A stretch of 31,019 nt of DNA from positions 1-31,019 of the IMG/VR virus record IMGVR_UViG_3300030339_000175. One strand, 5' to 3'. This document shows positions 10,532 through 14,264 of this stretch, in pieces; position 1 is the stretch's first letter, and the number at the start of each line of letters is the position of its first letter. A program made the position numbers and the translations under genes. The DNA comes from a virus. A model generated the notes under the pieces. The model had not been told where the DNA came from and did no database searches. It saw only the letters and a program-made list of their open reading frames with translations.

Positions 10532-10792
10532 TTATATCGCATTAATTTGCAATTTATGGGAACTATATTGGGTCATCTCTTTTGTCTCGGCGTCTTGTTT
10601 TACTTTTGCGACAAATTGAGCGTCCCCTTTTAAGTTAACGTTCATAACATCATTGGCATAACAAAAAGCTACTAACTCTTCAGATAAATCTTTAAGAGGT
10701 ACTTCGAAGTGATTTACAATATTGGTTCCTTCAAAAAGATACACTTGCTGATTGAGAATAAAAGGCTGTACTGAAACAATAACTTCTTTCAT
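10532..10792 (-). CDS. Small phage protein of unknown function (86 aa)
   Basis: An 86-residue protein whose ATG overlaps the stop of the upstream gene as TAATG (10790-10794), so it is probably translated by coupling. It has no recognisable motif or membrane segment. It begins with alternating hydrophobic residues (MKEVIVSVQPFILNQQVYLF), which suggests beta strands, and ends in KLQINAI. It sits between two other unknown genes in the P2 operon with dUTPase. I do not recognise a family. Confidence 0.8.
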   Translation of the reverse strand: MKEVIVSVQPFILNQQVYLFEGTNIVNHFEVPLKDLSEELVAFCYANDVMNVNLKGDAQFVAKVKQDAETKEMTQYSSHKLQINAI

Positions 10793-11212: not shown

Positions 11213-11677
11213 TTAACTAATAACTTCTGCGTATTGGCTATCACTGGCTAAATTAACTCCTAGGACTGGATCGAAATGCGGCTCTTGATTAGGAATATAT
11301 CTGCCATATTTCATAATAATATTTGAGAAATCTTCTTGCAATCGTTGCACTTCTGGATAGATTTCATGCTCTTCATATCCAGTATAAATAACAATATAAT
11401 CGGCACAGTATTTTCTAAAAGCCTCTACTATTTCGTATATGGTTTCAAAATCTATCATAGGTTCTAGCCCAGAAAGAACAATTGCAGAAGTCAAAGAGTT
11501 CTTTCTGTACCTGACTGCAAGATCCTCGATCTTATATTCTATAATTGGAGCCTTAGCGAGAGGGCTATTTTGACATAAATCCTTACCACATTTCCAGTCA
11601 CAATAAGGCATCATTAATACCATACTCGGTTTTTTAAAGTTAACAAAGTCTTCTTCAACTAGCCCTCTCAGTTTCAT
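11213..11677 (-). CDS. nrdG: Anaerobic ribonucleotide reductase activase
   Basis: A radical-SAM enzyme that would install the glycyl radical on NrdD. The protein has 154 residues. The start (MKLRGLVEEDFVNFKKPSMV) and the LSGLEPM segment (about 69-75, the GGEP-type SAM-binding element) fit the family. The cluster-binding cysteines are C26, C30 and C35 (CDWKCGKDLC), a CX3CX4C spacing instead of the usual CX3CX2C. I recall longer spacings in other phage NrdG-like proteins, so it need not be inactive. The ATG overlaps the homing-endonuclease stop (TAATG), and the ribosome site AAGGTGATC lies inside the end of that gene. Its partner nrdD is one gene upstream. Confidence 0.88.
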   Translation of the reverse strand: MKLRGLVEEDFVNFKKPSMVLMMPYCDWKCGKDLCQNSPLAKAPIIEYKIEDLAVRYRKNSLTSAIVLSGLEPMIDFETIYEIVEAFRKYCADYIVIYTGYEEHEIYPEVQRLQEDFSNIIMKYGRYIPNQEPHFDPVLGVNLASDSQYAEVIS

Positions 11678-12336
11678 TAAAGATCACCTTCTTCGAAGAA
11701 AACCCAAGATAAAGGTTCATTTGTGTCAGGATGCTTCCCACAATGAAAACGAGTTCCTCGACAGCACTCTCCAATTTTACCAGGTTTCCCTTTTATCCCA
11801 CACCACAATCCAGCCTCTTTTTGGCTATCAAATTTTTGTCCAGTATTTACACAAATAACCGCAGTCTTTTTAGCTTTTTGAGAAATAATTTCTCGCCATT
11901 CTTTGTTGTGACCTTTGCCTTTATTTCCTTCACTAATTTTATTTCGATGTTCTATTGTTAATTTTTTCCCATAACAAGGATTTTTTTCTCCTGAATTTAT
12001 TTCTCTCATATGAGCTTTCCATTCTTCAGTTCTTTCATAACCTTTTCGTCCTCCGGTTGTCTTATTGTATCCAAAATTTGGATTAATAGTATCAAAGGTA
12101 GTAATTAATAATGTTTCGACATCACGAGCTTCTTCCTCGGAACAACCAGAAAAAATTATAATATGGGAAAATCTATCCCACCCATATTTATTGATAGCAC
12201 TAAAAAAATGTCTATTATTAGAATAACCATTTCCTTTCTGCCATCTTTTATTAACATCTTGTTGTCGAGTAATGCCAACATATTTTTTATCGTTATATAA
12301 ATTTATATGAATATAAACACTGTAATTGTTATTCAT
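11677..12336 (-). CDS. GIY-YIG homing endonuclease (free-standing)
   Basis: A 219-residue site-specific DNA nuclease. The GIY-YIG domain spans about 5-95: YIH at 8-10, YVGIT at 19-23, Arg31, catalytic Glu74 in RDVETLLI and Asn91 in GYNKTTGG are all present. DNA-binding modules follow. A NUMOD3-like segment lies at about 116-137 (GEKNPCYGKKLTIEHRNKIS). A NUMOD1/IENR1-like segment lies at about 160-212 (AVICVNTGQKFDSQKEAGLW, ending LSWVFFEE). It lies between nrdD and nrdG with TAATG at both junctions. It has no clear ribosome site of its own, so it probably relies on coupling to nrdD. In T4, nrdD also hosts a homing endonuclease (I-TevII, intron-borne), so the locus is a known target. The likely role is self-propagation. 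Confidence 0.9.
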   Translation of the reverse strand: MNNNYSVYIHINLYNDKKYVGITRQQDVNKRWQKGNGYSNNRHFFSAINKYGWDRFSHIIIFSGCSEEEARDVETLLITTFDTINPNFGYNKTTGGRKGYERTEEWKAHMREINSGEKNPCYGKKLTIEHRNKISEGNKGKGHNKEWREIISQKAKKTAVICVNTGQKFDSQKEAGLWCGIKGKPGKIGECCRGTRFHCGKHPDTNEPLSWVFFEEGDL

Positions 12337-14264
12337 TATAGTTCTGAAAAATTGTTCGCATTGTACCAGTCTCGCATTTGGAATTCTTTTTTACGAGATT
12401 CAGAATAAGAAGACTCCCTAGTAAGAAAACCAACGATACGCTGATAGGTAGTAATGACTGGTTTACCACATTGAGGACAGGTGGAGCCGTAGAACCCGTG
12501 GTTATGCTCGCAAGCACTAATCCGAGTACAGAATGCAAAATAAACAACTCCTTCATCTGCTATATAGTTTAATAACTCCCAAGCGGTATCTGAATCCGTT
12601 AATGGTGCATCTAGGTTAATATGAGCTATTGATCCGCCATTACAAGCTTTGTCTAAAATTGCACTAAGTCTAATCTTTTCTTGTAAAGTACATTTAGTTC
12701 CTAAGCCTATCCATTGATTAGCATACAATGGAAGATCATAAGCTTGGTTCGGATAGAGAAACTTATCTTTCTGCATTAAGATGGCAGCAGCGCGCTCTCC
12801 TGGTATCTCTTCAATATTAATGCTGTAGTCTGTATCAATAGCAAATTCATCTTTAGCTTTATTCAGAGTCTTGAAGATTTCTTGCGCGAAACGGATTCCA
12901 TCATCTGAATAAGACACATATCCAAACTCATCTGTCTGAGTAAGACCAAAAGCTTGTAGTGCTTCATATACTCCTATAATCCCAATAGTATTATACTGAG
13001 AAGCAAGATTGATAATTTCATAAGTATAGTTAGGTAGCAATCCTTTTTCGATATTGCGCTTGATAATATCTCGAATAACATCAAGAGTCTTCATTACCAA
13101 AATTACTTTTTCTCTTAGGAGAGTGAGATAATCTCCCCAATTTCCTTCGGTTTCGTAAGCAATTCGAGCTAGGTTAATAGTATTAACTTTGATACTTCCT
13201 ACCTCTAGAGCGGTCCCGCCAATTGAGTTAAAGTATCCTAGATCTTTCACATCTGATACTAATCTGCAACAGTTGCTAAGACTAGTTACATCCTTACTAA
13301 TGAAGAAGTTGCTATCCGCCCATTTCATATTATGGTCAGAAGCCCACCGTGCCCACTCTTCATTTACGAATTTTCCATCTTCACCTCGAAGAAGAGCAAA
13401 AGTAAGAACTGGCCAGGTCATAACATTTTGTTCTCTGATTTTACTGACAACATCCATAAATGCTTTTTGATACTCAAGAATCTCATCAATATAATCTATG
13501 ATAAATGTTCCATCTGGGAATTCTTTACCTCCAAAAAGAGCTTCTAAGTAGGAGCGATCGAAGATAGAAAAGTTGCTGAAAGCAGACTGGTTAACTCTTA
13601 AATAGGGCTGGTTGAGTTTATATACTATACGCTGAAACTCTTGATCTCGATAACGTTCTGGAGTGTCTGTATAGTATCCCTCTGAGACGTCTTTCTTCCA
13701 AAAGTAAAAAGAATAAATTAAGAAGGAAGGAAGGCCGCAGGCGCCAGATGTCCTATTAGAAGTCCAACTCACGAACTCTCCGACAAAATCGGTATATGTT
13801 ACTAAATGCTTAGGAGCTTGATTATTGAATCCTTCAACAAAGTACAATCCTTTGGTTACTAATCCTTCAAGATCATAAGCGAAACAATAAGGAATGAAGG
13901 TCGAACTCGCAGCATCATGTAGATAGAAATGTCCGTCCCATTCATTTGCTAACCATTCATTCGCGGTCTTAAACCCATATTTCTTATTCAGTTCATGGTA
14001 AATCTTATTGAAAGCAAGAAGCTTAGAATGAGGCTTACTCATTTCTGTTGTCAAGGAGCAAATATCATTGATGCTTGCATTCGCGCTACCATCAATGCTT
14101 GCATCCGCGACTTGCTGCTTATCTACAAAATTATCAATGAAATCTGTATAACTAAGCTGGCTATCTGCAAAACCATTCAGATGAGCCATTTCATCTCCAT
14201 GCTCATTCATCATTTTATTGATTTGAGTAACAAAGTTCTTGCTCAACTTAATATCTATCTTCAT
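12336..14264 (-). CDS. nrdD: Anaerobic (class III) ribonucleoside-triphosphate reductase
   Basis: Reduces ribonucleoside triphosphates to deoxy forms without oxygen, using a glycyl radical made by NrdG. The protein has 642 residues and no N-terminal ATP-cone, as in compact phage forms. Visible landmarks are NEWDGHFYLHDAA (about 107-119), TSGACGLPSF (172-181, Cys176), SNCCRLVSD (330-338), and a zinc site with C585, C596 and C599 (CPQCG). The glycyl-radical motif is RIVGFL, with Gly612, about 30 residues from the end. The reading frame is uninterrupted, so no intron is present. The stop overlaps the homing-endonuclease start. A glutaredoxin gene lies just upstream, a fitting electron donor. The enzyme indicates an anaerobic host. 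Confidence 0.95.
   Translation of the reverse strand: MKIDIKLSKNFVTQINKMMNEHGDEMAHLNGFADSQLSYTDFIDNFVDKQQVADASIDGSANASINDICSLTTEMSKPHSKLLAFNKIYHELNKKYGFKTANEWLANEWDGHFYLHDAASSTFIPYCFAYDLEGLVTKGLYFVEGFNNQAPKHLVTYTDFVGEFVSWTSNRTSGACGLPSFLIYSFYFWKKDVSEGYYTDTPERYRDQEFQRIVYKLNQPYLRVNQSAFSNFSIFDRSYLEALFGGKEFPDGTFIIDYIDEILEYQKAFMDVVSKIREQNVMTWPVLTFALLRGEDGKFVNEEWARWASDHNMKWADSNFFISKDVTSLSNCCRLVSDVKDLGYFNSIGGTALEVGSIKVNTINLARIAYETEGNWGDYLTLLREKVILVMKTLDVIRDIIKRNIEKGLLPNYTYEIINLASQYNTIGIIGVYEALQAFGLTQTDEFGYVSYSDDGIRFAQEIFKTLNKAKDEFAIDTDYSINIEEIPGERAAAILMQKDKFLYPNQAYDLPLYANQWIGLGTKCTLQEKIRLSAILDKACNGGSIAHINLDAPLTDSDTAWELLNYIADEGVVYFAFCTRISACEHNHGFYGSTCPQCGKPVITTYQRIVGFLTRESSYSESRKKEFQMRDWYNANNFSEL

Follow-up and report, generated by a model that had tools for sequence, protein, structure and literature searches.

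A free-standing GIY-YIG homing endonuclease (HE) gene occupies the joint between nrdD and nrdG in a phage class III ribonucleotide reductase operon. In our reading, to which we give a probability of roughly three in four, it arrived by homing in register with the old junction, is weakly translated by reinitiation, supplies the Shine-Dalgarno (SD) sequence of nrdG and is favoured for retention. The window analysed is the whole IMG/VR virus record IMGVR_UViG_3300030339_000175 (31,019 bases). Its gene arrangement, the empty junctions of relatives, the recurrence of endonucleases at this junction and the positions of the SD sequences are direct observations. The features concerned are as follows.

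12336..14264, minus strand: nrdD, anaerobic ribonucleotide reductase large subunit, 642 aa (Pfam NRDD, 6.9e-86; PHROG anaerobic ribonucleoside reductase large subunit)
12337..12356, minus strand: last 20 nt ahead of the endonuclease ATG, no SD (duplex energy -1.3 kcal/mol)
12334..12338, minus strand: TAATG stop-start junction from nrdD to the endonuclease, 1-nt overlap (sequence)
11677..12336, minus strand: free-standing GIY-YIG HE gene, 219 aa (Pfam GIY-YIG 5.9e-7, NUMOD3 2.1e-7; PHROG homing endonuclease 1.3e-29)
12088..12324, minus strand: GIY-YIG catalytic domain, aa 5-83 (Pfam)
11932..12042, minus strand: NUMOD3 motif, aa 99-135, DNA-binding part (Pfam)
11682..11690, minus strand: AAGGTGATC, the SD of nrdG inside the last codons of the HE (sequence; -15.9 kcal/mol for the 20 nt)
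11675..11679, minus strand: TAATG stop-start junction from the endonuclease to nrdG, 1-nt overlap (sequence)
11213..11677, minus strand: nrdG, anaerobic reductase activase, 154 aa (Pfam Fer4_12 4.1e-6; PHROG anaerobic ribonucleotide reductase small subunit 3.6e-7; adjacent homologs in relatives)

Both joints have the form reported in the first-pass annotation: base 12336 is common to the nrdD stop TAA and the HE start ATG (CTATAATGA), and base 11677 to the HE stop TAA and the nrdG start ATG (CTTTAATGA). Excision of the 659 bases that separate the HE ATG from the nrdG ATG leaves a single TAATG, as had also been proposed. The window nrdD is intact and uninterrupted, and with nrdD and nrdG complete on both flanks the HE is borne by neither an intron nor an intein; no Rfam family reached its gathering score within the window. 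The TAATG form alone is not rare in the window, since two further 1-nt TAATG overlaps occur at 10792 and 29193, making four among 25 adjacent minus-strand pairs. The NrdG protein had no match in annotated phages, and its cysteine loop (CDWKCGKDLC; gene at 11213-11677) is shortened, most aligned relatives being up to six residues longer.

The HE protein scores 30.1 bits for GIY-YIG (Pfam cut-off 22.6) and 31.2 bits for NUMOD3 (cut-off 20.4), the latter representing a separate NUMOD-type module. Residues Y8, Y19, R31, E74 and N91, which we take to be the catalytic set of the GIY-YIG family, are all present in an alignment of relatives, with N91 just beyond the Pfam stretch. The best match in annotated phages is the GIY-YIG endonuclease of Lactobacillus phage LL-Ku (38.2% over residues 1-200), which differs in its insertion site, beside a terminase gene; a PDB sequence search with the HE gave no relevant match. 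A GIY-YIG domain with its key residues, a NUMOD module, a free-standing gene and patchy occurrence at the site are the attributes of a Seg-like free-standing HE, and nuclease activity is predicted from the protein sequence.

Virus and genome contigs were fetched using NrdD, NrdG and their alignments, and the 215 rows obtained were reduced to 174 distinct junctions by grouping on the 60 nt ahead of the nrdD stop (loci are designated by L numbers). Each locus scan gave at most 80 of the 98, 488 and 492 confirmed candidates, respectively, so the junction frequencies are not unbiased; the counts include L123, which has a different nrdD (26.6%), and L220, which has odd coordinates, and the inserts of L033 and L291, which lie inside the last nrdD codons, were not counted as junction HEs. 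The 174 distinct junctions among the matches listed comprise 25 TAATG joints, 33 4-nt overlaps, 42 overlaps of 5-30 nt, nine abutting pairs, 16 gaps of 1-40 nt, 31 gaps of 41-300 nt, 17 gaps longer than 300 nt and one odd case. The same site is tight and empty (-30 to +3) in 117 of these listed junctions, filled by other HEs in five and occupied by a remnant in one. Among the 16 nearest loci listed, seven have an empty TAATG joint (L264, L201, L199, L196, L265, L198 and L294), three abut (L181, L008 and L007), four overlap by 4 nt (L162, L186, L031 and L290), the two genes of L197 are 2 nt apart and L200 is filled by another gene. The expectation that relatives lacking the endonuclease would show the same junction thus held in part: empty sites exist, and those in TAATG form make up 25 of the 174 listed junctions and seven of the 16 nearest, but several near relatives have TAAATG, TAATTG or ATGA instead. 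The window's ancestral junction was likely TAATG. Among the matches listed, none is an empty twin close to the window, the highest identity over the NrdD C-terminus being 69.8%; insertion, target site and co-conversion are therefore not seen for the window itself. An exchange of nrdG together with the HE was also considered, and across 165 loci identity to the window in NrdG was uncorrelated with that in the NrdD C-terminus (Spearman -0.02); no exchange is claimed, because the NrdG identities between the window and the near clade (42-55%) fall within the range inside that clade.

The SD energy of a start was taken as that of the duplex between the 20 nt before it and the 3' tail of 16S rRNA; for random minus-strand positions in the window the median is -3.0 kcal/mol and the 5% limit -8.6. 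Against this background the HE start, at -1.3 kcal/mol, has no ribosome site of its own, and the nrdG start, at -15.9 kcal/mol, is the second strongest among the 34 starts listed in the window, its site lying inside the last codons of the HE; both points bear out the first-pass annotation. No hairpin hiding the ribosome-binding site was found at the HE start (z +1.15), and the nrdG start gave z -0.86. Whereas the nrdG SD lies in the last codons of the HE in the window, it lies in those of nrdD in empty junctions: the 117 tight empty junctions have a median nrdG SD energy of -8.1 kcal/mol, which comes from the nrdD tail, and among these listed matches only two bind no better than -1.3 and none binds as strongly as -15.9. 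In all 16 nearest loci listed the nrdD tail binds the anti-SD at -5.1 kcal/mol or better, compared with -1.3 in the window. At the starts of the other five junction HEs the SD energy is -6.2 to -10.3 kcal/mol; the SD-less HE start is peculiar to the window, and among the HE-filled junctions only the window's nrdD tail lacks an SD. Removal of the insert in silico keeps the TAATG but leaves almost no SD for nrdG (-1.3 kcal/mol).

The five other HE-filled junctions among the matches listed hold GIY-YIG genes in L021, L216 and L287 and HNH genes in L022 and L153, where the HNH_3 score of L022 (23.7) is just below the Pfam cut-off of 24.8 and the GIY-YIG call for L287 comes not from Pfam but from its match to the window HE (33% identity, E 4e-15). 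By parsimony on a NrdD C-terminal tree, built with FastTree from 170 of the 175 rows, the junction must have switched state at least five times. L021 and L287, 97.3% alike in the nrdD C-terminus, carry different endonucleases, and their DNA diverges at the nrdD stop. An empty-versus-filled comparison at this joint, the check suggested at first pass, was obtained in another phage pair, the near-identical L210 (empty) and L216 (occupied), which show no indel once the insert is skipped: the HE ATG of L216 stands at the exact position of the L210 nrdG ATG, an ATG-for-ATG insertion, and the nrdG SD passes from the nrdD tail in L210 (-7.0 kcal/mol) to the HE tail in L216 (-6.4). The two differ by four mismatches in 615 nt and then by 25 across the final 85 nt of nrdD, and their nrdG genes by four in the first 500 nt, the first at +47. 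The diverged nrdD tract beside the insert is such as homing with nrdD-side co-conversion would leave, and the footprint hints, for L216 and not for the window, at cutting of the HE-less allele and over-inheritance; recombination of other kinds may also have produced the tract. The tail of the L216 HE (NETNLHN), considered as a captured nrdD tail, is the same frame read across the nrdG start, and for this reason only the exact ATG boundary is claimed. A decayed allele is seen in L149, which is 92% identical to L153 over the nrdD side but retains 121 nt of the HNH gene found complete there; the remnant keeps roughly the first and last 60 nt, including the SD of nrdG, and may persist by chance.

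In our reading, the HE very likely arrived by the copying of a donor allele and would have settled in exact register with the old junction, its ATG where the nrdG ATG stood. Ribosomes finishing nrdD would reinitiate weakly on the HE at an overlapping TAATG with no SD, and the HE would therefore be kept low; those translating nrdG would use the strong SD in the last codons of the HE, aided by the second TAATG. Reinitiation and low dosage, like lock-in, are what we infer from this layout. With no SD left in the nrdD tail, a phage that lost the HE cleanly would translate nrdG poorly; this would favour retention, and the HE may in this way be locked in by capture of the ribosome-binding site. The earlier suggestion that the HE entered so as to preserve coupling gains from the empty TAATG relatives and from the register-true insertion in L210/L216; the double TAATG did not hold up as a signature of homing, because L200 has the same form around a gene that is not an endonuclease. 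Our reading is weakened by L200, which makes ordinary packing of the operon a possible source of the joints, by the SD-like starts of the other five junction HEs, and by the lack of a close empty twin among the matches listed. The joint adds phages far from T4 to the record of the nrdD-nrdG boundary as a repeated homing site and provides examples from nature of a single joint in empty, filled and decayed form. It offers a testable case of a selfish gene entering an operon without breaking its translation, in which capture of a ribosome-binding site may retain it.

The alternative that survives best, at slightly under even odds, is ordinary operon packing, in which TAATG or ATGA joins any gene here and the double TAATG is silent on how the HE arrived. 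L200, the sister of the window on the NrdD C-terminal tree (support 89, 170 rows), carries between nrdD and nrdG an unrelated gene of 79 aa that matches no Pfam family and has TAATG on both sides; whichever gene becomes established in this operon may adopt the same arrangement. The four TAATG joints in 25 minus-strand pairs point the same way, as do the many small genes (about 50-106 aa) that occupy the junction with tight overlaps in other loci, the finding that only two of 45 HE relatives in all contexts have a -1 overlap on both sides, and the frequency of short -1 and -4 overlaps described for prokaryotes in PMC10666635. However, packing does not explain the exact ATG-for-ATG insertion and the diverged tract in L210/L216, and it is largely compatible with homing, as it accounts for the form of the joints and not for arrival. 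Small Cys-rich proteins (CPC ... CMCK ... GECHCGLY) that look like small redox proteins are encoded between nrdD and nrdG in L010 (5932-6108) and L285 (5905-6131). One endonuclease relative with 1-nt overlaps on both sides (L107:2804-3438) adjoins apparent phage tail or structural genes and has no start duplication.

It is also conceivable, though unlikely, that the insertion duplicated an SD-stop-start element, so that both TAATGs derive from one and the upstream SD copy later decayed. Such an event is suggested in L102, a distant HE relative flanked by a repeat of roughly 45 nt with SD, TAATG and nine codons (score 68; maximum of 2340 mismatched pairs 35), and the HEs of L305 and L306 also start like their own downstream genes. 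In the window, the 20-nt HE tail finds its best match in the nrdD tail of L162 (13/20, rank 1 of 117), which among the matches listed is the window's top relative by NrdD C-terminal identity; yet the tree does not place L162 among the nearest rows, and the likeness may be convergence on an SD, as 17 of 2441 ORF starts match L162 equally well. Moreover, the window flanks hold no significant repeat (score 16; mismatched-pair 5% level 23) and L216 shows no duplication; across the flanks of 50 HEs, direct repeats are clear in L102, borderline in L092 and not significant in the window. In L092 (1300-2030) a 21-nt near repeat stands just before the endonuclease start and across its end (score 32; mismatched-pair maximum 35). 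The genes at L102:2944-3525, L305:1477-2070 and L306:269-799 are related GIY-YIG endonucleases whose N-termini approximate copies of those of the downstream tail genes (HE/tail gene: MASIKLKGD/MASIKLKGD, MSSIKLTGD/MSSIKLQGS and MSSIVIQGD/MSSLVIQGD, respectively). It is a tentative and rather doubtful generalisation that phage HEs habitually invade stop-start joints, either ATG-for-ATG or with a duplicated SD-TAATG-start as in L102, and capture the downstream ribosome-binding site while the old one decays; if true, the operon would be in register from the first generation and clean loss of the HE would silence an important neighbour.

Domestication of the HE as a regulator that sets the NrdD:NrdG ratio is very improbable: the unusually strong nrdG SD, stronger than at any tight empty junction listed, does lie in the HE frame, but the patchy presence, the differing endonuclease families at one joint and the deletion remnant fit selfish-gene turnover, and the expected catalytic residues are retained.

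Arrangements of this sort are known from phage T4; the relatives examined here add rare before-and-after views of one. SegH reportedly replaces mobC in other T4-like phages; both are set beside the window HE by description rather than by sequence. T4 mobC is likewise a free-standing homing endonuclease gene at the nrdG/nrdD joint, as the T4 account in PMC2988022 records, but mobC is an HNH gene with a 24-bp overlap, and T4 is unrelated to the window phage. According to passages in the same source, the start of mobE (between nrdA and nrdB) overlaps the stop of the upstream reductase gene nrdA as UAAUGA, read there as coupling that limits the endonuclease, and initiation signals are absent at six of 12 free-standing endonucleases; mobE differs in being HNH, and those passages do not describe its downstream joint as TAATG. 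They also name promoters of downstream genes embedded in endonucleases (segG and others) as a cause of retention, where the window HE has a ribosome-binding site in place of a promoter. Among the open-licence papers listed, none was seen to report an endonuclease gene that harbours the SD of its downstream neighbour. Split reductase genes are reviewed in PMC3653736, whose text cites the SegH/Hef paper, and PMC10448857 describes endonuclease genes near essential genes, including reductases, and their interchange.

The family of the L216 junction HE also includes endonucleases carried by inserts that interrupt nrdD near codons 223 or 333-345 in 12 loci (L290, L035, L006, L121, L033, L298, L294, L030, L004, L025, L295 and L026), and those inserts that were tested gave no credible Rfam match to group I introns. 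In the endonucleases of L021 (3428-4102) and L287 (5946-6548), in-frame TAG codons fall at typical Q sites (YIG-Q-T; GE-Q-KT), a pattern suggestive of TAG being decoded as glutamine in these phages; both reading frames need TAG = Q. At L287:6500-6530 the GGAGG SD of nrdG is spelled by the codons of the conserved HWRY motif (CAT TGG AGG TAT) with which the endonuclease ends.
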